This document shows positions 26,757 to 43,293 of a stretch of 64,000 bases of DNA, piece after piece. Each line of letters begins with the position of its first letter. The first letter of the stretch is position 1. Made by a program: the position numbers and the translations under genes. The stretch is from Bacillus sp. FJAT-18017 (GTDB lineage Bacteria; Bacillota; Bacilli; Bacillales; Cytobacillaceae), in contig NZ_CP012602.1 of assembly GCF_001278805.1 (NCBI RefSeq), forward strand, positions 3,941,501 through 4,005,500, written 5' to 3'. A model generated the notes under the pieces. That model ran no database searches, had not been told where the DNA came from, and saw only the letters and a list, made by a program, of their open reading frames with translations.

Positions 26757-27686
26757 TTATTGTTTTTCAGAGTACCATAAATATCCGCAATAACCTAAAT
26801 CATTTTCTTCTAAAAATTCAATAGCAGTTTCAAAATTTTTATGCTCTTTGTATTCTTTGTAAGAATTAAAGAAGTTAACAAATTTGTTATCTTCTAATAG
26901 ATTGTATTTTTTTTCTATAACATGTATGTGATTAATATTAACATAATCCATTATTTCTACTGGTTCAATGGAATTAAGTAACTGTTTAAGAGTTACTTTA
27001 TCATTAGCTGTAATTATATTTTCAACCTTATTTAAATCTTTTTTATACAAATGGAGAGAATCAGTAAAATGCCTCTGAAAACCTACTTTACAACCTATTT
27101 TTTCTGCAAGGTAACATTGAAACAAGAAAAACAAAATAACATTATAAGGGATGCCTAAAAAAAGGTCGTTAGAGCGATTAATTACTGTCATATCTAATTT
27201 TCCTTCTCGGATCTTTAGCATAACAGAAGTATTGCATGGAATGTCTCTTGAATCACTTCCCAAATCTTCAACACTCCACATTGATAATACCACTCTACGT
27301 GTCTCTCGGTTCTCTCTTAGTATTTGAATAGCTTGTTCAATTTGGTCCTGATTAAATTTTTTTCTCAACCTAAACCCGTAGGCTCCGTTTAATGTTAACC
27401 CATCATCCGAGTATTTATCATAATTACTTATATGTTCCTGTAAAATACTCAGATTATTATATCCCAGTATAAACCACGAAAATTCAACCAAAGCAAAAAA
27501 AGGATTAAAACTCCTTTTTTTCAATAATGGCATCCTAAACCGATCTTCATGTATTTCTATAAATGCTGGACCTAAGTCTTTTACTAACCCAATTCTTGAC
27601 TCGCAAAATTTTTCATCACTACCTAATGCTTCAGAAAGTAGCTCAAAATATATTAAGGTAAAATTTGTACCACTTTTTGAAATCAA
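26757..27686 (-). CDS. Thymidylate synthase homologue with intact active site (last gene of novel operon)
   Basis: The 309-residue protein has a thymidylate synthase fold. Seen directly: the nucleophile in DIPCNTSVML, the phosphate/pyrimidine site NRSNDLFLGIPYNV (counterparts of E. coli ThyA Arg166, Asp169 and Asn177) and the HLY triad (His207/Tyr209 counterparts). T4 dCMP hydroxymethylase has Asp where ThyA has Asn177; here it is Asn, so a uracil-type substrate such as dUMP is likelier. The N- and C-terminal parts diverge from ThyA. Methylation versus hydroxymethylation cannot be told. TTG start after GATGGGGTG; 12 bases after the PPTase gene. Confidence 0.85.
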   Translation of the reverse strand: MISKSGTNFTLIYFELLSEALGSDEKFCESRIGLVKDLGPAFIEIHEDRFRMPLLKKRSFNPFFALVEFSWFILGYNNLSILQEHISNYDKYSDDGLTLNGAYGFRLRKKFNQDQIEQAIQILRENRETRRVVLSMWSVEDLGSDSRDIPCNTSVMLKIREGKLDMTVINRSNDLFLGIPYNVILFFLFQCYLAEKIGCKVGFQRHFTDSLHLYKKDLNKVENIITANDKVTLKQLLNSIEPVEIMDYVNINHIHVIEKKYNLLEDNKFVNFFNSYKEYKEHKNFETAIEFLEENDLGYCGYLWYSEKQ

Positions 27687-27698
27687 AATGTCACCCCA

Positions 27699-28427
27699 TC
27701 ATTTTTGATTAGAGTTTAATATGGAAACAGATATGACGTACTCATTAATAATTATCCATTTACCTTTTCCTTTATGGTTTTCATATGAAAATATAAAATC
27801 ATATAGATTTTTATCATTTTTTGTAGAAGGATTTAATGTTATATGAAACATATTAATGAATTTCTTTGAAGTGTCTTTGGATATAATAGCTTTTATAATG
27901 GATTCTTTTGCAGACCACAACATAGTTTCAATAGTTTTTCTTTCCACGAAACCGTAATGTATTTTTATATTGTTATTAAACCACAGCACACTCTCATCGG
28001 ATGTTAAGAAATAGTTGGAAAATGCAGAATGTCTGTCTTTTATTTTCTCAATATCACAACCGTGAACTATATAGTTACATGAAACAGTGGCCACACCAAT
28101 ATTATCTGTATGAGACATACTTAGATTTGGAGTTGATATTTGGAGTGGCCATTTTACATAAGGAATGCCATATTTAGTATTAAAAATAGTAATTAATTCG
28201 GGTCGTAATGGCAATTCATAATATTTTTCTAGCCAGTTAACGGCTGCTGCTTTAGCTGCAACTCTAGATGACAACCATTCCATTCGCTTTCTACGGTGTT
28301 TCATTGATTGCCATGAAACAGACTCTTCCGTTGTTAACCATTTAATTTTTTCTTCTGTAGCTTTGCAGGCATAACATATGATACCTAGATCTTTAAATTG
28401 TAATTGACTAATGTCGTTCAATTGCAT
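27699..28427 (-). CDS. 4'-phosphopantetheinyl transferase (Sfp-type)
   Basis: 242 residues with Sfp-superfamily motifs in order: LSMSHTD at about 102-108, GCDIEK at 123-128 (Mg-binding D125 and E127) and WSAKESIIKA at 171-180 (K174/E175). These transfer phosphopantetheine from CoA to a carrier-protein Ser. The only carrier nearby is the ACP-like gene at 31218 in the same operon, so it is the probable partner (inference). The sequence is A+T-rich like its neighbours. No polyketide or peptide synthetase is seen in the window. The ribosome binding site (TTGGAAG) is modest; 32 bases separate it from the upstream gene. Confidence 0.9.
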   Translation of the reverse strand: MQLNDISQLQFKDLGIICYACKATEEKIKWLTTEESVSWQSMKHRRKRMEWLSSRVAAKAAAVNWLEKYYELPLRPELITIFNTKYGIPYVKWPLQISTPNLSMSHTDNIGVATVSCNYIVHGCDIEKIKDRHSAFSNYFLTSDESVLWFNNNIKIHYGFVERKTIETMLWSAKESIIKAIISKDTSKKFINMFHITLNPSTKNDKNLYDFIFSYENHKGKGKWIIINEYVISVSILNSNQK

Positions 28428-28459
28428 TCTTCCAATCAGACAGATGTAAGAATCTAATA

Positions 28460-29179
28460 TTAACTATGAGATTCGACTAATGTTCTCATTGCCTTTTTGC
28501 TACTATCTAATTCAGCATGAGTTGCTATACAAGTGACTTTGCCAACATTGAAACCCGTATTTTCAGAAATAAAAGTTAATAAACGCCCTAATCCTAGATA
28601 ATTGCCGTATGCTTTGGTTACAAAATGCTGATTTCTATAAATGGATGTTAAATCAATTTTATCTTCTCTTATTTTAATGCTTATAAAGCTCATACAAGGG
28701 AATCCCATAGTTGTTATTTGATCTTTTTTAGGATCATATATAGACATTTCATACATTACACGAATTGTTCTACGGCTTTCCTTTGCTCTAATCAATTTTC
28801 TTATTGTTTTTTCGAGCTGATTAAAAAGGTCTCCACTTTCATAATTCCAAGCTACTAATCTACCAAAATAAGTTCCAGATTGGTTACTACTAACTTGTCT
28901 AATTCTTGGATAGAGATCATAAAAACGTTCATACAGTTTTTCTCTATTTCCCTCGCGGTATAAACCGATTGGAAATATTGTATTAGCAACAGTTTCTACC
29001 CTTTGTTGTGAATTATATACAAGAATAGTATCTAAATCATATTTTAATTGTTGTACTTCAGTTGTAGGATCCTCAATCTCCACTATTAGATTATATGACT
29101 CATTATTATTATTTAATAAAAATGAAATTGCCTTTAGCCAAGCGTCAGAAATATTATCACCTTTTATTAAATCATTCAC
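28460..29179 (-). CDS. Divergent thymidylate synthase-like protein
   Basis: 239 residues. The second half follows thymidylate synthase: MGFPCMSFISIKIREDKIDL (nucleophile Cys kept), IYRNQHFVTKAYGNYLGL (Arg kept, ThyA Asp169 position changed to His, Asn177 position kept) and VTCIATHAELD (His kept, Tyr209 position lost). The first half has ESRRTIRVMYEMS, like the ThyA phosphate-binding Arg pair. The altered residues suggest another reaction or a regulatory partner for the homologue at 26757. GTG start. It lies 13 bases after the protease gene in the same operon. Confidence 0.8.
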   Translation of the reverse strand: MNDLIKGDNISDAWLKAISFLLNNNNESYNLIVEIEDPTTEVQQLKYDLDTILVYNSQQRVETVANTIFPIGLYREGNREKLYERFYDLYPRIRQVSSNQSGTYFGRLVAWNYESGDLFNQLEKTIRKLIRAKESRRTIRVMYEMSIYDPKKDQITTMGFPCMSFISIKIREDKIDLTSIYRNQHFVTKAYGNYLGLGRLLTFISENTGFNVGKVTCIATHAELDSSKKAMRTLVESHS

Positions 29180-29192
29180 CCTTTACACCCCT

Positions 29193-29864
29193 TTAGGCAA
29201 TAACCCAGGCACCTGCTTGATATTTATTAAAATATTCATAAGATAAATAGCCATATCCTTGGTCGCCCCATTTTTGCCCCCAGCTATTTCTAATTAAGAA
29301 ATAAGGTTTTTTATAATTATCAACACCGAAACCAACAATTGTTATAGCATGATAATTATTCTTGTATGTATCAAAGTTTGGAGGGTCTATGAAATTATGA
29401 GTATTGTTAGCATAATAAAATGTTTGCTGAGTATCGATAACAGTAATCACTACATTTTCACTATTTAATTCATTTTCAATTGCATTTTCATGACAACTTA
29501 CACTTCTCCAGTTTGGAATTCTATTATTTCTTGCATTTCTAAAGAATTCTTTAGCTATCGGAGTGCATAATGGCAAAAGAATGGGGTCTTGGTAAGGCAT
29601 TAATGCCTCATCCAACTGCCCTAGTTTTTCTAGGTTTATGAGAGCAAGATGTACAAAGGTGCCACTCGATTCATCATAATCTTTATCACGAATTTTACAC
29701 ATCCGAAACAGAAACTCTTCTGAATAGTCATGTGTGTTAGTTTTCTTGAACCCTTCATGGGCTGAAGTAACGGCGAAAGCCACACAAGTTGGTCTTTGAC
29801 CTTGGCTTCGTACCGTAGACATCATAGGTCTAAAATCAATAGTAGGAACAAAAGTGCGACTCAT
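29193..29864 (-). CDS. Papain-type (C1) cysteine protease without propeptide
   Basis: 223 residues. The papain-clan catalytic set is complete: Q21 (oxyanion) and C27 in VRSQGQRPTCVAF with the correct six-residue spacing, H172 in NYHAITIVGFG and N193 in RNSWGQKWGDQGYGYL. There is no signal peptide, membrane segment or propeptide, so it should be active in the cytosol as made. C1 proteases of this kind are uncommon in Bacillaceae. The gene just upstream encodes a chagasin-like domain, a known inhibitor type for this very protease family. ATG with TAGGAG site; 10 bases after the upstream gene. Confidence 0.92.
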   Translation of the reverse strand: MSRTFVPTIDFRPMMSTVRSQGQRPTCVAFAVTSAHEGFKKTNTHDYSEEFLFRMCKIRDKDYDESSGTFVHLALINLEKLGQLDEALMPYQDPILLPLCTPIAKEFFRNARNNRIPNWRSVSCHENAIENELNSENVVITVIDTQQTFYYANNTHNFIDPPNFDTYKNNYHAITIVGFGVDNYKKPYFLIRNSWGQKWGDQGYGYLSYEYFNKYQAGAWVIA

Positions 29865-29874
29865 AATCTAACTC

Positions 29875-30843
29875 CTAACCTATCAGTAACGATTCGGATA
29901 CACCGTGTCGTTTTGATTGTACTTGTAAATTTAAAGTAAAGGTATCTATGACCTCATCTGGAATCCAAGGTTGTAACAATTTAATGTCTATTTTAGTATT
30001 AATTTCTTCTAGCAATCTTACTGTGAAAATTTTTTTCCCAGCGGAACCCACTAATTTATGATTTGAGTTATAAAAATTAGAAAGATATTCAACTCCCTCA
30101 GCGGGAGAACTTTCCCATATAAACCCTGTCGTTGGGTTTTCATCTAATTTTATTTTTAAAGTATCCCCAGTTTTAGGCGCTAACACGTTGCCCTTATCTT
30201 TTTTACTTATTTGCCAAACATCGTTCCACGAAGATTCTAATCCTTCATCGCCTAACTGCTTTTTAATCCTTATTGGTGGAATGGCCTGATTTCTTTTATA
30301 GTTTTCTCCCGAAATAAACTTTAAGGCCAAAAGCTGATTTAAAGTAGCAGAATAACTCGTACCCAGTCTCAGGCCAAGAGTATACACTTCTTCAGCAGTT
30401 ATATCGTTTCGAGATAACTCTAATTTCTTCATTTGTTTAATTATTAATGGCCTTGGCAATAAAAAATGACTAGCAAAAACTTCTGCAATTTTCTCGTTAT
30501 CATTCCTTTTATAATCAGATATCCTAAATAGTTCCTCTTCAGTATCTAGACTTATAGGATCTTTTCTTAAAAAATGACAATATTCATGTGCTGCCGAATA
30601 ACGTTGTTTACTGATAGGCAAGTTTTCATTAATTAAAATTCCAGCAGGGATTCCCTCTTCCTTTTGTGCAGGTAAATATGCTCCAGCTAAAGAACCTAAT
30701 GGTTGAAACATTAATACAATATTTTTGGACTCTATAATAGAAAAAATATCTATTGGATTATTTAGGTCCGTCTGTAACCTTTTATGCTCTCTACCAGCCT
30801 CAATAATAGCTGTCTCAAAGATTCGTTTCCAAGGATTTATCAA
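29875..30843 (-). CDS. ImmA/IrrE metallopeptidase fused to a chagasin-like (I42) cysteine-protease inhibitor domain
   Basis: 322 residues. Residues 1-185 form an ImmA/IrrE zinc peptidase: SAAHEYCHFL gives HEYCH at 86-90, with the third ligand in EKIAEVFASHFLLP near 121. Residues about 222-310 form a chagasin-like domain with all three inhibitory loops: NPTTGFIW (236-243), GSAGKK (267-271) and QPW (291-293). Chagasin-type inhibitors block papain-family proteases. ImmA relatives cleave their cognate XRE repressor, and such a gene lies directly upstream. TTG start after GGGAGGG; 2 bases separate it from the XRE stop. The fusion is unusual. Confidence 0.88.
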   Translation of the reverse strand: MINPWKRIFETAIIEAGREHKRLQTDLNNPIDIFSIIESKNIVLMFQPLGSLAGAYLPAQKEEGIPAGILINENLPISKQRYSAAHEYCHFLRKDPISLDTEEELFRISDYKRNDNEKIAEVFASHFLLPRPLIIKQMKKLELSRNDITAEEVYTLGLRLGTSYSATLNQLLALKFISGENYKRNQAIPPIRIKKQLGDEGLESSWNDVWQISKKDKGNVLAPKTGDTLKIKLDENPTTGFIWESSPAEGVEYLSNFYNSNHKLVGSAGKKIFTVRLLEEINTKIDIKLLQPWIPDEVIDTFTLNLQVQSKRHGVSESLLIG

Positions 30844-30845
30844 TA

Positions 30846-31202
30846 TTAACCCTCCCGGGTAGGGAAATTTCCGTTACCCACATTTTTTAAGAACTGAGCA
30901 AATTTAAGAACCTGCTGTCTATCAATTTCAGTTAAATCTTTTGCTGTCCTTGCAAGTATTTTAACTGTCTGCTCATCATTTTCTTCCTGTCCATAAAAAT
31001 AACTTAACGGATATTTAAAAAGTCTTGCAAACTTCTCTAATTCCAAAACATCAACTTTTCTTTTTCCACTTTCTATAGCAGATATAGATGCTCTTGGCAT
31101 TCCGACATAATTTGCCACTGTTTGTTGTGATAAACCTAGATATTCTCTAGTATCCCTTAAACGCATTGCTAATTGTAAAACCTTTTCCTTTTCCCGTTCC
31201 AT
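30846..31202 (-). CDS. XRE-family transcriptional regulator
   Basis: About 118 residues. The N-terminal HTH reads LRDTREYLGLSQQTVANYVG and MPRASISAIESGKRKVDVLE, followed by a helical tail (LTEIDRQQVLKFAQFLKN). XRE plus ImmA/IrrE pairs are repressor and anti-repressor modules (as ImmR/ImmA of ICEBs1). Here it probably represses this operon and is removed by the metallopeptidase (inference). An ATG at 31202 with GGAG upstream is preferred to a TTG at 31217 that abuts the ACP stop. Confidence 0.88.
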   Translation of the reverse strand: MEREKEKVLQLAMRLRDTREYLGLSQQTVANYVGMPRASISAIESGKRKVDVLELEKFARLFKYPLSYFYGQEENDEQTVKILARTAKDLTEIDRQQVLKFAQFLKNVGNGNFPTREG

Positions 31203-31217
31203 TTCCTTCAACTCCAA

Positions 31218-31466
31218 TCAAGTAATAAGATCTTGAATCAATAAACAAAAGGCGTTAAAAGAACGTTTTGCGATATCATGTATCATTTGCGGTTTTATCG
31301 TTATGCTGTATTCTTCTTCAAGTATGGGTATCATTTCAACAAAGTAGATTGAGTCAATTTCTATATCGTCGTATTCCTCTAACTCCATTAAAAGAGCATC
31401 AATATCTTCACCAAAGTATTCATCAAGTAAGCTCAAAACTTTTTGTGTGATAATTTCATTAACCAC
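31218..31466 (-). CDS. Acyl carrier protein-like protein
   Basis: 82 residues, acidic, with the four-helix carrier pattern. IEIDSIYFVEM places Ser39 in a DSI motif, the counterpart of the DSL phosphopantetheine site, and the following helix (VEMIPILEEEYSITI) fits ACPs. It lacks neighbours for fatty-acid, polyketide or peptide synthesis, but a phosphopantetheinyl transferase lies in the same operon. It may carry an acyl or aminoacyl group to an unknown acceptor. GTG start after GGAGGATGC; 30 bases after the kinase gene. Confidence 0.82.
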   Translation of the reverse strand: MVNEIITQKVLSLLDEYFGEDIDALLMELEEYDDIEIDSIYFVEMIPILEEEYSITIKPQMIHDIAKRSFNAFCLLIQDLIT

Positions 31467-31496
31467 TGTGTTGCATCCTCCAAAAAACTATAAATT

Positions 31497-32123
31497 TTAC
31501 AAAACGAATTTTTTAATTAGATCAATGACCTTTTTAGAAATTTCTTGCTGAGTAAGTGTGGCATCAATTACATGAACTCGTTTTTTATCTCTTTGTGCCG
31601 TGTATAAAAAACCTTCTCTTACTTTTTTTTGAAATTGTATTGTTTCTAGGTCAAATTGATCTATTTCTGTGTCCATTCTCTTACTTATTCTTCTTTGAGC
31701 TATCATAGGGTCAATATCTAAAAGAATCGTCAAATTAGGTTTTGTACCTTCTGTTGCTTCATGTGTCATTAAATCAATCAATTCAATGTTGATTCCCCTA
31801 GCGAAACCTTGATAAGCGCAAGTTCCATCTATACCTCTGTCACTTATTATTATCTTTCCTTCATTAAGACTAGGTTGAATAACATTTTTTACTGTTTCAT
31901 GTCTATCAGCTTCAAACAACATAAATTCGGTAAACGGATTCAATTTGGGTTGACGTGGAGTCTTTACCATATTTCTTACATCTTGCCCAAAATTTGTTCC
32001 TCCGGGTTCCATAGTTTTTACCACAGGAATTTTTCTGTCGTTTAGCCAATTGTATAATATGTTTATCTGAGTAGTCTTTCCACTGCCACCTATACCTTCA
32101 AAAGTTACCCATTTTCCACTCAA
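31497..32123 (-). CDS. Thymidylate kinase-like (dTMP kinase) protein, first gene of novel operon
   Basis: 208 residues. Nucleoside monophosphate kinase features: P-loop GIGGSGKT (10-17), EPGGT (39-43), ISDRGIDGTCAYQG with D95-R96, and a C-terminal lid-like Arg-rich part (AQRRISKRMD). This is a Tmk-family enzyme that would phosphorylate dTMP or a modified dUMP/dTMP analogue made by the thymidylate synthase homologues. A housekeeping tmk normally lies near holB, so this is a second copy (inference). The start is TTG, with AAGGAG about ten bases before it. Confidence 0.9.
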   Translation of the reverse strand: MSGKWVTFEGIGGSGKTTQINILYNWLNDRKIPVVKTMEPGGTNFGQDVRNMVKTPRQPKLNPFTEFMLFEADRHETVKNVIQPSLNEGKIIISDRGIDGTCAYQGFARGINIELIDLMTHEATEGTKPNLTILLDIDPMIAQRRISKRMDTEIDQFDLETIQFQKKVREGFLYTAQRDKKRVHVIDATLTQQEISKKVIDLIKKFVL

Positions 32124-32224
32124 ATAAATTCATCTCCTTAAAAAACGAACATATTTTCTACTTTCATTTATGATACAGCATTTTGTGGAAATTTTAAACA
32201 AAAAAGTTAAAATTGTTTAAAAAT

Positions 32225-32253
32225 CTTACAAAATTTAAAAAGACCTTTGTCAA
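32225..32253 (-). promoter_or_regulatory. Candidate promoter of the eight-gene operon
   Basis: TTGACA at 32248-32253 and TGTAAG at 32225-32230 are separated by 17 bases, about 100 bases before the tmk start. The -10 is weak, fitting a repressed promoter. The left end of an IS3-like remnant begins only 15 bases upstream. Confidence 0.5.
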
Positions 32254-32267
32254 CGGTTAAAATGAAT

Positions 32268-33424
32268 TGTCCTCTTTAAGTAGACACTCAAGAAAGCTCC
32301 AGATACTTTGGAGGAAAGAATGTACTAGGAGGGCATTTTTCTATAGCAAAAAAGGGGCAAACATTGAAGAACTACTCAGAAGAATTTAAACTCAATGCCA
32401 GGAATAATGCGAATGGTTAGAAAAGTTATAAAGTATTAGCGGAGGAGTTTACAATACGGAGTGTACCCAACTAAAGGTTTGGTTTAGGAAATGGAAAAAC
32501 AGAAAATCTTTAATGAGTTAAAAGATGTTTCCATCATCTAAAAGGACGCCCAGGAACAAAATTAAAATCAAATGAAAAGGAAATAGATTATTTGAAGGCA
32601 AGGGGAATTATTTAAAAAATCTTTATCCAAATCTGATATAGGAGGAGAAGACATCCCTAGATGGCAGAAGCATGAACTGAATCGTGGGATAAGAAGTAAG
32701 TATCCCGTTTGCAACATTAGGAAATTTATTACATAAAACCTACAAGCTATTAAAAGTGGACGGAAATAAGTGAAAAGAAAGCGAAGTAGGAACAACTTAT
32801 TCAGGAACACTTTATGGCAATCCATTTTATGAATCCCGAATTAGGCCGTCCAAATATCGGATAAATTAAAGGAAATGGGTTTTTTGATTAACCACAAAAG
32901 AGTCCCCAGTTGATGAAGGAATAGAGATACAATCAGTAATACAGAGGAAAGGAAAGGTCACGGACAAACCCCTTCTGTTATATGAAGAGTAAATTATCCA
33001 GGAATCTTTTCAATAATGAAATTGCAAGTTGTGGCCATTCAGTAGAATGACCTTGAACTAGTACTTAATTCTATATAAAAATGGACAAAGAAAAAAGACG
33101 TAGCTAGAACCATTCTCCATCGGATCAGGGATTCCAATATACGTCCAAGCTAAAATTAGAGGCAAAAGGGGCATTAGGTAGCTACTTTAGCAAAGGAAAC
33201 TGCCTGGACAATGCCTGCAGTAGAATCATTCTTCTCACACCTCAAAACAGAGAAGTTGTGTATGAATCAGTGTAATTCAAAAGGGTACTAAGACAATCGA
33301 TCGAGGAGTATATCAATCACTACAACTAAAAACGAAGACAAAGAAAATTAAAGAACGCGCCCCGATGGAATATCGACACGCGCTCGCTACATAGCTTTTT
33401 TCAGTTGTTTACTTGACAGGGGCA
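32268..33424 (+). mobile_element. Decayed IS3-family (IS150-like) insertion sequence
   Basis: Scattered frames match IS3 transposase: KNYSEEFKLNA and SYKVLAEEFTIRS (OrfA), then GYRRIKLKEMG-like, SDQGFQYTS and VESFFSHLKTEKL (DDE part of OrfB) and the C-terminal KERAPMEYRHALAT. Many stops and frameshifts make it inactive. Terminal repeats are recognisable: TGTCCTCTTTAAGTAGACA at 32268 and, inverted, TGCCCCTGTCAAGTAAACA ending at 33424. At about 1157 bp it is shorter than a full element. No clear target duplication. Confidence 0.82.
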
Positions 33425-33960
33425 AGACCAGACATAGGTTTATCAATTATTTTACTTGAATTGAAAATTTTTAGCTTTTCGTCACTTTTAACATACAAAG
33501 GATGCTTTGGATGCCCTTCTTTGGTAAGAGAAAGGCAAAATAACTCAACTCTTTTTAAATATCCCAAAACTTGTTCATTTCTATTATTTATTGTACCTTT
33601 AGTCCCCCATGCAGCTACTGCCAAATCTGCTTTTTTTAATGCATCAAGTATGTAGAAATCGTTATTTTTTCCAACTGGGTCTTCACAAGACAATAACTCT
33701 TTAGGATCAGTTGCTCTATAGGCAAATAAATTTACAACCTCAAAAGAACCAAATCCCCAACGTTTAGCAAAACTTATGCACCGCCTTATTGTAGGATCAT
33801 CTTCAAAATGATCAGCAGTACTTGGATTAAGCATTATAAAAACCATTCTTGGTAATTGACGATTCCAACCACGAAATAACGAATATCGATATCGCCCTGT
33901 CTCATCTAAAATAGCATCCATCTGAATTTCATCCAAATAATATTCCATTGACAATTGCAT
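33409..33960 (-). CDS. DUF1643 family protein
   Basis: 183 residues. DUF1643 hallmarks are clear: FIMLNPSTAD, DDPTIRRCISFAKRWGFG and VVNLFAYRATDP, then a Trp/Gly stretch AAWGTKG. The family is common in phages and defence-rich regions and may be nucleotide-related, but its function is not known. The ATG at 33960 is preceded by GTAGGTGAT. The last codons (APVK and stop) come from the right inverted repeat of the IS3 remnant, so the original C-terminus was replaced. Confidence 0.88.
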   Translation of the reverse strand: MQLSMEYYLDEIQMDAILDETGRYRYSLFRGWNRQLPRMVFIMLNPSTADHFEDDPTIRRCISFAKRWGFGSFEVVNLFAYRATDPKELLSCEDPVGKNNDFYILDALKKADLAVAAWGTKGTINNRNEQVLGYLKRVELFCLSLTKEGHPKHPLYVKSDEKLKIFNSSKIIDKPMSGLAPVK

Positions 33961-34410
33961 ATTATCACCTACCACTTATTTATTATTTTATATAATAATT
34001 ATGTGACAACAAAAGTTTATAATATCATTTACCCTTTTAACAAAATTTACTACAAACAAAGGGACTAATAATTTTTACAAAATCTTATATTATTACATGT
34101 ATAAATTCTCTATATTAAAAATAGAGTTCTTGAAAAATTTAACTACTCGACGTAAATGAAAGTTACCAAATCTTCGCCATTAACTAAGGAGGATTAATAA
34201 ATTTAATCTTCCTCTTGATAATAATAGTATTGAATTTTCAATATTAATATATCATTTAATCAGGAATGGAACAAAAAAATTATTTTCCAAACAAAGACAA
34301 TAAGAAACAGTAATATACGATAGGGATGACTTTATATTATTTTCCAAATTTTAGATTTGTTGACTGCTTATCACCCTCTTTACCCATAAATACCAAAAAT
34401 GATAGTATAA
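33961..34410. other. A+T-rich intergenic region, nothing recognised
   Basis: Very A+T-rich on both strands, with no frames of note and no hairpins with T-runs. It must contain the DUF1643 promoter near 33980-34030. Confidence 0.5.
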
Positions 34411-39435: not shown

Positions 39436-40323
39436 CTACAAGAAAATCTCCTCACCTACATTCATTTCCTTCGCCTTGTCGAAAACGCCCTTCGCCACCG
39501 CCAGGTCAAAATGGGCTGCCCCTACAGATTTGTAGATCGTGATATCCTTATAATTTCGTTCAACCTTATTCACGTGAAGTTCAGCTAATGTCCCAGAAAG
39601 CTGCTCAAATGACCATTTCCCTCTTTGGGCTGCATCTATGAATTCTCCAGCCTCCGCTTTCATCCCCTCATGATCATCAGCGTAAATCAACGCTGCTTGT
39701 TCAATTGCCCCTAATGGTATTTCACGCATTTCCGGTAAATAACTACCCACGCCGATAATATGTGTCCCGGCTTTTAAATAATGTGCATCAAACACTTCTT
39801 CAGTTGAACGGTTTGCACAACAAATGACATCAGACTGGGAGACGGCTTCGTTCCGGTCGACATCGGTATGAATCGCAGCGGTCACACCGGCCTCTTTGAG
39901 CTTTTCGCTGAATGTATATGTCTTATCGGTGGAGCGATTTATTAAATAGATGTCTTGAATCGGCAGCACGTTCACTATTCCCAGTACTTGCTCAAACGCC
40001 ATTCCACCTGTACCAATGACGGTCAACACGTGACTGTCAGGCCTGGTGAGATGGCGTGCTGAAATTGCACTTAGTGCGCCAGTTCTCAATCGTGTCAGAT
40101 AAGAAGCGGCCACTAAGCTTATATGTCTTCCTGTTTCGAGCTCTGTTAGTAAAATGGCTCCTTGTGTGGTCGGAAGCTCAGCTGAGCCGTTATCAGGAAG
40201 GATGGATACAATTTTGGCAGCTGCCATTTCCGCCCCATCCGAACTTGGCATATAGAGTACAGAACCGTTGCGTTCAGGGACATTCAGTACCGTCCGAGGA
40301 GCATATTCAGTTGCAAGCAGCAA
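39436..40323 (-). pseudogene. Chimeric ornithine cyclodeaminase-like gene remnant with an MFS gene piece at its front
   Basis: From TVLNVPERNGSVLYMPSSDG to the end this frame is nearly identical to the intact OCD-like gene at 42265. Its first ten residues, LLATEYAP, and the frame before them (IGGEWGGAL, to about 40352) are those of the MHS transporter at 43294. A duplicated transporter-OCD pair must have lost the DNA between them. The N-terminal ~50 residues of OCD are missing, so activity is doubtful. No ribosome binding site is seen at the apparent start. Confidence 0.75.
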
Positions 40324-42264: not shown

Positions 42265-43239
42265 CTACAAAAAAATCTCCTCCCCCATCTCCATTTCCTC
42301 CGCCTTCTCAAAAACCCCCTTCGCAACAGCCAAATCAAAATGAGCAGCCCCAACTGATTTAAAAATAGTAATATCATCATGTCCACGTTCGACCGGATTC
42401 ACGTGAAGTTCAGCCAATGTACCAGAAAGCTGCTCAAAAGACCATTTCCCTCTTTGGGCTGCATCTATGAATTCTCCAGCCTCCGCTTTCATCCCCTCTT
42501 TATCATCAGCGTAAATCAACGCTGCTTGTTCGATAGCCCCTAACGGGATTTCACGCATTTCAGGTAAGTAACTTCCTACGCCGATGATATGTGTCCCTGC
42601 TTTTAAATAATGTGGATCAAACACTTCTTCAGTTGACCGAGTTGCACAACAAATAACATCAGACTGAGCGACGGCTTGGTTCCGGTCCACACCGATATGA
42701 ATCGTAGCGGTCACACCAGCCTCTTTGAGCTTTTCGCTGAATGTATATGTCTTATCTTTGGAGCGATTTATTAAATAGATGTCTTGAATCGGCAGCACGT
42801 TCACTATTCCTAGTACTTGCTCAAAAGCCATTCCACCTGTACCAATGACGGTCAACACTTGACTGTCAGGCCTGGCGAGATGGCGTGCTGAAATTGCACT
42901 TAGTGCGCCAGTTCTCAATCGTGTCAGATAAGAAGCGGCCACTAAGCTTATATGTCTTCCTGTTTCGAGCTCTGTAAGTAAAATGGCTCCTTGTGTGGTT
43001 GGAACATCAGCTAAGCTGTTCTCAGGAAAAATCGATACAATTTTGGCAGCTGCCATTGTCGCGCCGTCCGAACTTGGCATATAGAGCACAGAGCCGTTGC
43101 GTTCAGGGACATTCAGTACCGTCCGATGAGGGTTTTCAACTCGTCCTTCATGAATAGCCACTAACATGGCTTCGACATCCCGAATGGCATCTTCCATCTT
43201 ATAAATGGATTGAATCAGTTGTTCGTTTAGTATAAGCAC
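42265..43239 (-). CDS. Ornithine cyclodeaminase/alanine dehydrogenase-family protein (OCD/mu-crystallin)
   Basis: About 325 residues. The NAD(P)-binding Rossmann motif is VIGTGGMAFEQV, preceded by the ARHLARPDS helix. Substrate-side residues include the Lys/Arg-containing SLVAASYLTRLRTGA. Family members act on ornithine, alanine, cyclic imino acids or ketimines; here the exact substrate is unknown. The start is a GTG at 43239, well spaced from AAAGGAGAG; upstream in-frame codons are not needed. It lies 54 bases after the MHS transporter gene, so probably one operon that imports and processes one compound. Confidence 0.88.
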   Translation of the reverse strand: MLILNEQLIQSIYKMEDAIRDVEAMLVAIHEGRVENPHRTVLNVPERNGSVLYMPSSDGATMAAAKIVSIFPENSLADVPTTQGAILLTELETGRHISLVAASYLTRLRTGALSAISARHLARPDSQVLTVIGTGGMAFEQVLGIVNVLPIQDIYLINRSKDKTYTFSEKLKEAGVTATIHIGVDRNQAVAQSDVICCATRSTEEVFDPHYLKAGTHIIGVGSYLPEMREIPLGAIEQAALIYADDKEGMKAEAGEFIDAAQRGKWSFEQLSGTLAELHVNPVERGHDDITIFKSVGAAHFDLAVAKGVFEKAEEMEMGEEIFL

Positions 43240-43293
43240 AAAATCTCTCCTTTTTATGTAAAAACTCGGCCAAAACATCTGGCCGAGTGATTG

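Follow-up and report, generated by a model that had tools for sequence, protein, structure and literature searches.

Regulation by an XRE-type repressor together with an ImmA-type peptidase has its precedents in ImmR/ImmA and CapH/CapP, and the pairing of a carrier protein with a phosphopantetheinyl transferase (PPTase) is typical of small-molecule pathways. Nucleotide enzymes have also been tied to phage defence: in PMC13092281, operons whose domains include thymidylate synthase, dNMP kinase, 5-hmdU kinase or NMAD are validated as protecting E. coli from phage, thymidylate synthase and 5-hydroxymethyluracil kinase are among the domains whose anti-phage activity in E. coli is newly established, MazG and MazG-C are predicted to be defensive, and Burroughs et al. 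2015 is cited for predicted nucleotide-centric conflict systems. The locus described here, within a window of 64,000 nucleotides (the whole stretch of DNA that was analysed), brings such elements together. At roughly even odds, we read it as an immune cassette, mobile and inducible, in which a phosphopantetheine carrier helps to make or read a pyrimidine nucleotide modified at C5 and a protease paired with its inhibitor acts as the gate.

An eight-gene operon and its five-gene core

As the original prediction held, eight closely spaced genes lie on one strand (minus), and an ORF check bore out their coordinates. The gaps, predicted to be 2-32 bases, range from 0 to 32 bases when remeasured (30, 0, 2, 10, 13, 32 and 12 in the order tmk, ACP, XRE, ImmA-chagasin, C1, TS2, PPTase, TS1), and their sizes suggest a single transcript. 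The eight genes are a real operon, and they are given below with a tentative further member and a candidate operator.

31497-32123, minus strand: tmk, dTMP-kinase-like, extra copy (Pfam Thymidylate_kin 2.1e-46)
31218-31466, minus strand: ACP, acyl/peptidyl carrier protein, core gene 1 (weak NCBIfam ACP match plus conservation)
30846-31217, minus strand: XRE-type repressor, core gene 2 (HTH_3 5.6e-12)
29875-30843, minus strand: ImmA/IrrE metallopeptidase-chagasin fusion, core gene 3 (Peptidase_M78 8.7e-11 and Inhibitor_I42 2.4e-15)
29193-29864, minus strand: C1 papain-like cysteine protease, core gene 4 (Peptidase_C1 1.5e-19)
28460-29179, minus strand: TS2, divergent thymidylate-synthase-like enzyme, core gene 5 (Thymidylat_synt 1.1e-5)
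27699-28427, minus strand: Sfp-type PPTase (ACPS PF01648 1.3e-7)
26757-27686, minus strand: TS1, second thymidylate-synthase-like enzyme (Thymidylat_synt 1.9e-33)
33409-33975, minus strand: DUF1643 protein, tentative member (found beside 6 of 99 loci)
32180-32234, minus strand: imperfect inverted repeat directly upstream of tmk, candidate operator only (22-nt arms, 82%)

A TTGACA-type box with two mismatches (32225-32253) overlaps the inverted repeat, such boxes occurring across the whole window at about the chance rate, and scans for promoters and terminators showed no clear surplus over shuffled sequence. Because a canonical thyA and another tmk (36% identity to the operon tmk) are present elsewhere in the same genome, the operon copies of these enzymes are extra.

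Although the predicted operon stands, its eight genes are not the conserved unit, which is a five-gene core, ACP-XRE-ImmA-(C1 protease)-TS2, with tmk, TS1 and PPTase as one of several outfits. The core recurs in the 99 loci examined, which are the best matches to TS2 and not a random sample, and which come from several bacterial phyla and one archaeon, 16 of the 99 being plasmid-borne. The order XRE-ImmA-(C1)-TS2 is kept at 90 of the 99, or at 91 when a common strand and gaps below 300 nt are required, 89 of these having ACP upstream. The core proteins co-diverge (Mantel r 0.90-0.95 between core families, equalled in 0 of 300 permutations). The same eight genes are found in the same order in Halobacillus, PPTase and tmk adjoin the core copy on a haloarchaeal plasmid, and TS2 is present in 24 plasmid records, 15 of them typed conjugative. 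Since the arrangement recurs in other phyla it lies far above chance, and a strain-specific or chance gene cluster is ruled out by recurrence, gene order and co-divergence. The claim that these genes constitute a system was to fail if they occurred elsewhere only apart or in an order unique to this strain, and it withstood that test. TS2 was not found in the 7 other genomes of the window strain's genus; the operon is therefore no constant feature of that genus.

For the nine loci with broken order in the first count, reasons were assigned locus by locus, including contig ends (L032 and L065), the presence of MazG_C-TS2 only (L079), TS2 in first place with ACP not found (L026 and L094), a fusion of TS2 to holo-ACP synthase (L091), and an XRE call lost to overlapping ORFs as the sole cause (L029, L033 and L045). 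XRE was matched at 96 of the 99 loci, the exceptions being L032, L065 and L079, and ACP at 91; the latter was initially unseen in 21 loci, mostly where longer overlapping ORFs masked it, and 8 of the 99 are still without a match. We also considered whether these are genes known from phages and rejected this on the TS2 searches: the window TS2 had zero matches among 50,697 phage records, and scanning viral contigs with a TS2 alignment gave only 2 that were confirmed, a single-protein scan giving zero.

The ImmA-chagasin fusion and the C1 protease

The ImmA protein carries an M78 domain (residues 38-170) and an I42 domain (residues 224-305) in one polypeptide, the latter assigned to the chagasin inhibitors by its I42 match, and its residues H86, E87 and H90 are invariant across 96 sequences. 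C1 was matched at 57 of the 99 loci; it is a papain family C1 protease, and its Gln, Cys, His and Asn columns, which we take to be the papain catalytic residues, are preserved in 57 of 57. Apart from C1, no obvious killing effector is seen, which counts against an immune role, as does the lack of a C1 match at 40 of the 96 loci with ImmA. Whether ImmA carries a chagasin domain goes hand in hand with the presence of C1: of the 96 ImmA loci, 56 have both, none has C1 only, 2 have chagasin only (one weak) and 38 have neither. Pfam I42 is found in 54 of the 96 ImmA proteins, and in 2 of the 41 loci first scored as being without C1, a set that included L043, which does carry C1. Inhibition of C1 by the chagasin domain is predicted from this co-occurrence, and the idea of a protease switch is strengthened by it.

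The tracking of C1 by chagasin, and the plasmid copies with their conjugative majority, are also what would be expected of an addiction or plasmid-maintenance module with C1 as toxin, ImmA's chagasin domain as antitoxin and the nucleotide enzymes carried along as cargo. We consider such a module very unlikely, given that 40 of the 96 ImmA-bearing loci have no C1 match and mostly keep the rest of the core, and that the core enzymes co-diverge with the switch.

Nucleotide enzymes and the carrier protein

Both TS proteins belong to the thymidylate synthase superfamily and neither is a canonical ThyA. The assignment of TS2 reflects its catalytic Cys and Asn (Cys162 and N193, unchanged across 42 sequences) and its profile match to ThyA (hhalign probability 90%), whereas H-x-Y and the Arg pair are unconserved when the TS2 profile is set against ThyA, the window TS2 itself having RR close to the Arg-pair position. 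TS2 is without some ThyA substrate contacts, and dUMP as its substrate is therefore a guess. In TS1 the catalytic Cys (in PCN rather than PCH), R-S-x-D, the uracil Asn and H-x-Y are present in 7 of 7 rows, two of which (L005 and L006) are relatives outside the cassette, and the phosphate Arg pair in 6 of 7 (L025 has RQ), these residues presumably having the roles they have in ThyA. TS1 is nevertheless not the canonical methylating enzyme, as both active-site Trp are substituted in all seven rows. According to PMC6400193, Trp83 of EcTS governs solvent access and corresponds to Val85 in T4 dCMP hydroxymethylase, which retains Trp82. The operon tmk matches TIGR00041 (176 bits above cut-off) and the PADLOC candidate PDC-M51B (4.7e-12); it is equally compatible with DNA-precursor synthesis and with signalling.

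The window ACP is weak when scored alone (Pfam PP-binding 0.0017 and NCBIfam 4.7e-6, both below cut-off), so its identity rests on its conserved place and on the Ser in its relatives, which is present in 91 of the 91 rows having a residue at that column (97 aligned rows in total). The phosphopantetheine Ser and the PPTase in the operon together mark a carrier protein. PPTase occupies the matching place at L024 and L025, and TS2 is fused to a holo-ACP synthase (AcpS) in L091 and adjoins AcpS in L026 and L094.

Beside the core, MazG/MazG_C is found at 86 of the 99 loci, HMUDK at 52, UDG at 41 and dCTP deaminase at 10 (Pfam names taken from representatives), which favours the pyrimidine-nucleotide chemistry foreseen in the original prediction. 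HMUDK-family and UDG proteins never occur together (both at 0 and neither at 6 of the 99). Going by record titles, the 41 UDG loci are all proteobacterial, and the proteobacterial loci of Henriciella and Rhizobium ruizarguesonis, as well as Sinorhizobium NXT3 (outside the 99), have HMUDK instead; the exclusion is partly confounded by ancestry. HMUDK, the '5-hmdU DNA kinase helical domain' family, thus stands in for UDG at these loci, and it may be an enzyme of the glycosylase type and not a kinase. A glycosylase-type fold is suggested only, by a model that lies closest to glycosylases with a fold match within chance reach of helical models; compared with the PDB by sequence, HMUDK gave chance-level matches only and UDG weak matches to uracil-DNA glycosylases (best E 0.048). 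At the window locus HMUDK, UDG and MazG_C were not called, and HMUDK_hel (PF18723) was found in 0 of 151 genomes, the window's own included, the same search picking it up in 3 of 5 locus-bearing genomes, namely the three with HMUDK at the locus. A glycosylase-type step is thus missing at the window unless DUF1643 substitutes; profile comparison of DUF1643 as a third glycosylase was negative, and its model is weak (pLDDT 78, built from 4 sequences).

Relatives of HMUDK are present in 460 phage records; the one in phage LuckyBarnes adjoins a TS and two annotated glycosyltransferases. These phage associations raise the prospect of self-marking by DNA hypermodification, in which the TS pair would make a C5-substituted deoxypyrimidine, tmk would take it towards the triphosphate, ACP would add a side chain, and plasmid or island DNA would bear the modified base as in hypermodified phages. 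TS1, which retains most ThyA dUMP residues and has lost both Trp, and the presence of TS2 in 24 plasmid records are consistent with such a mark. We nonetheless think it unlikely, because a MazG-type pyrophosphatase and UDG would clear modified nucleotides, a protease/inhibitor and XRE/ImmA switch is ill-suited to a constant mark, and TS2 is matchless in the phage records.

Defence context, proposed mechanism and known systems

The predicted neighbours, Wadjet JetABCD and a Schlafen-type helicase (PF09848), are real. At the same site the nearest congener has a type IV restriction enzyme and helicase-nucleases instead, and there is gene turnover at the insertion site; on other plasmids HMUDK sits with TIR, Nmad2 and a CBASS-type phospholipase. 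PADLOC gave no match for the window ACP, C1, TS1 and TS2 or for the single UDG, MazG_C and HMUDK proteins submitted, and found no CD-NTase among the eight operon proteins, which are thus not classed as CBASS. The core is probably an immune system of a previously undescribed kind, defence being favoured by the hotspot, by the TIR and phospholipase neighbours of HMUDK, and by the related-domain operons validated in PMC13092281.

A small-molecule pathway, such as one to a nucleoside antimetabolite comparable to mildiomycin or bacimethrin, would use the same enzymes differently, with a TS-like enzyme modifying a nucleotide, an N-glycosidase releasing the base and the carrier adding an acyl or aminoacyl group. 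Carrier protein and PPTase, common in such pathways, would fit, as would UDG, from a base-releasing family, and the glycosylase-like HMUDK model. MilA (TS family) and MilB (N-glycosidase) form such a pair (PMC5175136). We regard this pathway as rather improbable in view of the restriction genes swapped in at the same site, the fixed linkage with XRE/ImmA and the protease inhibitor, and the finding that no gene family beyond the named ones occurs at more than 14 of the 99 loci (unassigned ORFs of at least 70 aa, clusters judged by eye).

For an inducible immune cassette, we infer trigger, chemistry, target and defence role as follows. XRE would repress the operon until, on a trigger, the ImmA peptidase cuts it; by analogy with ImmR/ImmA and CapH/CapP the trigger would most likely be DNA damage or ssDNA during infection. 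The ImmA-fused chagasin domain would block the co-encoded C1 protease for as long as ImmA is neither engaged nor consumed. TS1 and TS2 would add a one-carbon group at C5 of dUMP, or read a pyrimidine already modified there, with the phosphopantetheine thiol of holo-ACP, charged by the PPTase, as partner of the pair, and the tmk-like kinase would phosphorylate the product to its diphosphate. The same nucleotide may, in relatives, be supplied or acted on by MazG/MazG_C, dCTP deaminase and the HMUDK- or UDG-family enzyme. Phage nucleotides would thereby be poisoned or recognised, or a nucleotide-derived signal would result.

A more specific version, which we regard as a long shot, is that a TS-like enzyme moves a C5-methylene pyrimidine nucleotide, from host dUMP or the phage's own hydroxymethyl nucleotide, onto the phosphopantetheine thiol of ACP; charging of the carrier would be the immune signal or weapon, and UDG or HMUDK would then free or trim the base. 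It is hinted at by the TS2-AcpS fusion, by the loss from TS1 of the methylene-shielding Trp pair, and by TS Trp mutants, which reportedly let thiols trap the methylene.

The immune cassette shares features with several known systems. CapH/CapP and ImmR/ImmA likewise have an adjacent XRE protein and ImmA-type peptidase, and PADLOC matched capH (2.6e-12, to the XRE protein) and capP (4.5e-14); unlike CapH/CapP, the operon genes have no CD-NTase match and the peptidase bears a protease-inhibitor domain. Phage thymidine hypermodification clusters likewise have the HMUDK family and TS, but the core TS2 is absent from the phage records searched and confirmed in 2 viral contigs. We know of no carrier protein or protease switch in the MilA/MilB system, nor, to our knowledge, is MilB of the HMUDK family; the likeness lies in a TS-family enzyme and an N-glycosidase acting on a modified nucleotide (PMC5175136 and PMC4081090). 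The DefensePredictor-validated E. coli operons likewise use thymidylate synthase, a nucleotide kinase and the 5hmdU-kinase family in defence, although the likeness is by domain names, and ImmA, IrrE, chagasin, papain and carrier protein are all absent from the available text of PMC13092281. The systems of Burroughs et al. 2015, as cited there, are a predicted class of nucleotide-modifying immune operons, as here. Our literature search, which took in a minority of subscription papers, found no description of this core. We know of no system that unites thymidylate-synthase chemistry and a phosphopantetheine carrier protein with both a chagasin-papain pair and an XRE/ImmA switch; here all four make up a compact unit present on a haloarchaeal plasmid as well as across several phyla of bacteria. 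An immune function would make it a new anti-phage route through modified nucleotides and, as far as we know, would give ACPs their first part in a system of this sort.

Conservation of the cassette

The operon and an adjoining repeat occupy the following positions in the window.
26757-32123, minus strand: eight genes in the order tmk, acyl carrier protein (ACP), XRE, ImmA-chagasin, C1 (papain-like protease), TS2 (thymidylate-synthase-like), phosphopantetheinyl transferase (PPTase) and TS1 (thymidylate-synthase-like), with successive gaps of 30, 0, 2, 10, 13, 32 and 12 bases
32180-32234: imperfect inverted repeat upstream of tmk, a candidate XRE operator

The families that the original prediction had named for the eight genes were matched by Pfam and NCBIfam, though the ACP alone scores poorly, below cut-off in both Pfam (0.0017) and NCBIfam (4.7e-6).

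TS2 matched 24 plasmid records by tblastn, several with a C1 peptidase annotated adjacent, and no phage record. Sixteen of the 24 were examined, and we note that H14-H17, four of the other eight plasmid records, have scores identical to that of record H13. A TS2 alignment search of 84,980 species genomes found a relative encoded in 251 of 278 pattern matches, and the best 80 of these 251, two viral contigs, the 16 plasmid loci and the window make up 99 loci, selected by TS2 similarity and not a random sample. TS2 is present at all 99 by construction, and without an overlap filter ImmA and XRE were each found at 96, ACP at 91 and C1 at 57. XRE, ImmA, C1 where present, and TS2 are successive among called genes at 90 of the 99 loci; by unfiltered matches they lie on one strand with gaps below 300 nt at 91, in 89 of which ACP is upstream. 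Accessory genes, also unfiltered, include MazG_C (86 loci), the 5-hmdU DNA kinase family HMUDK (52), uracil-DNA glycosylase (UDG, 41), AcpS (15) and dCTP deaminase (10). The gene-family profiles were built from plasmid and window genes with one iteration; tmk, TS1 and Sfp-type PPTase were found, with the overlap filter, at eight, seven and four loci respectively, counts that are likely too low because these three profiles had two seeds and no iteration.

Record titles place loci in Bacillota, Proteobacteria, Actinomycetes, Cyanobacteria, Chloroflexi, Acidobacteria, Planctomycetes and Polyangia and one on a Haloarcula plasmid, with phyla assigned by genus. Halobacillus salinus has all eight genes in this order, and Paenibacillus koleovorans has all eight interrupted by an additional TS2 and by an HMUDK. 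The correlation of protein distances is r 0.90-0.95 within the core and 0.80-0.91 when core proteins are compared with accessory enzymes; for each tested pair, none of 300 permutations reached the observed value. This argues that the set travels as a unit, with shared host ancestry also contributing to the correlation. That the cassette is a real system is near certain.

Genomic setting and a probable role in immunity

The 5.27 Mb genome also encodes a canonical thyA and a further tmk (36% identity) outside the operon, so the operon TS and tmk genes are extra copies. Among 101 genomes searched with TS2 (this one and 100 relatives), three matched including its own, and the two non-self matches (L005 and L006, 28-29% identity) are TS1-type genes; none of the seven other genomes of the genus matched. 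The chagasin family was found in one of 151 genomes searched, again its own. From this distribution, the absence of TS2 from the seven congeners and the confinement of chagasin to its own genome, we infer that the operon was acquired.

A Wadjet set lies 477 bases from the operon end. In the congener nearest by flanking gene (G007, 95%), the flanks common to both have 93-95% DNA identity, and window segment 17841-34929 has no DNA match longer than 100 bases at the corresponding site. There G007 encodes a type IV restriction enzyme (PADLOC E 8.5e-302) and has PDC-S37/Hhe-like helicase-nuclease, HSDR_N-like and HNH genes, and this replacement marks the site as a hotspot of defence-gene turnover. 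Two near-alike genes (39436-40323 and 42265-43278; ornithine-cyclodeaminase-like by eye) flank other genes in the window as a local duplication, and the pair gives double matches in the congener as well.

Five HMUDK plasmid regions, selected from 21 records, were also examined. A Gloeothece plasmid has HMUDK and an annotated NTP pyrophosphohydrolase flanked on one side by a CBASS-type phospholipase and on the other by a ThsB-like TIR with Nmad2. TIR, Nmad2 and HMUDK adjoin one another in Parabacteroides; these two neighbourhoods show the nucleotide module shared with other immune effectors. Sinorhizobium NXT3 has TS, dCTP deaminase, a small gene at the ACP position, XRE, ImmA, a second TS and HMUDK; AcpS and an NTP pyrophosphohydrolase are also present, and an ABC-three-component system follows. 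The Mycobacterium and Acinetobacter regions have HMUDK without the core. On balance we favor an immune function for the system.

The peptidase and protease components

ImmA residues H86, E87 and H90 are present in all 96 sequences, and the Gln, Cys, His and Asn of C1 in 57 of 57. All 56 ImmA proteins with C1 in the locus bear the chagasin domain, versus two of 40 without (L053, weak at E 1e-4, and L091, clear), although the profile was seeded from ten of the scored proteins and its match to those ten is partly by construction. Pfam I42, which is independent of those seeds, matches 54 of 96 ImmA at E 0.01, and at E 0.1 two of 41 in a presumed C1-less set that included one locus with C1 (L043). 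Median ImmA length is 298 residues without C1 versus 337 with it. Because the domain tracks C1 and C1-less ImmA is shorter, we conclude from the sequences that the chagasin domain on ImmA is presumably there for C1.

In ImmR/ImmA and CapH/CapP, an ImmA-type peptidase reportedly cleaves an XRE-type repressor, and by analogy ImmA would cleave XRE here. Regulation of the system by a peptidase switch is likely.

Nucleotide enzymes and the carrier protein

Accessory representatives were assigned by Pfam to HMUDK_hel (PF18723), MazG with MazG_C (PF18722), the UDG superfamily and DCD, and in the MazG_C proteins the MazG portion matches MazG-type proteins including dCTP pyrophosphatase 1. We consider nucleotide editing the likely activity of the system. 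A DUF1643 gene (33409-33975) stands beside the cassette at six of 99 loci including the window (Halobacillus, cyanobacteria and a viral contig). We also note a small family with the motif HD..NH.DI....DRLKHY..H..K..G at six loci, four in one cluster (L014, L016, L020 and L101), L091 by eye and L131 solely by position beside dCTP deaminase; four members scanned (L014, L016, L020 and L131) have no Pfam match above cut-off. It may replace MazG, as dCTP deaminase occurs at five of the six loci and no MazG_C is called at four.

TS1 was compared with ThyA in seven rows, five from cassettes and two from TS1 relatives outside the cassette (L005 and L006). Cys, R-S-x-D, Asn and H-x-Y are kept in all seven and the Arg pair in six, and both active-site Trp are replaced in all seven. 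In TS mutants lacking such Trp, the methylene intermediate is reportedly trapped by thiols. According to PMC6400193, Trp83 of E. coli TS governs solvent access and has Val85 as its counterpart in T4 dCMP hydroxymethylase. By analogy, since both Trp are replaced and Trp83 controls solvent access, TS1 may expose the methylene intermediate to water or thiol. L005 and L006 are from genomes of the same order and family as the source organism (G096 and G034); their TS1 is 50-54% identical to that of the window with about 140 additional C-terminal residues, and their related operon has a small kinase-like or MazG-like gene (by eye) and a TS-like protein of 303-313 aa in which the catalytic Cys is absent by eye (Pfam 0.016 for the L005 copy).

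In TS2, Cys162 and N193 are kept in 42 sequences; relative to ThyA, H-x-Y is not kept, nor is the Arg pair across the family. An Acidimicrobiia MAG (L091:8857-10281) encodes TS2 fused to AcpS (holo-ACP synthase) in a single ORF of 475 residues, in which the TS2 profile covers 44-304 and is followed by Pfam ACPS (1.3e-13), and TS2 adjoins AcpS at L026 and L094, which ties TS2 to carrier loading. PPTase and tmk adjoin the Haloarcula cassette, and because haloarchaea are, to our knowledge, without ACP-based fatty acid synthesis, its ACP is presumably not a lipid ACP. The boldest reading that the evidence allows is a nucleotide-charged ACP.

We claim the gene combination as new, judged by searches of open-access papers and by PADLOC 2023 rather than against the complete literature. 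Domains newly validated in E. coli anti-phage systems include thymidylate synthase and 5-hydroxymethyluracil kinase, and a legend names dNMP kinase and NMAD (PMC13092281). ImmA, IrrE, chagasin, papain and carrier protein go unmentioned in the text of that paper.
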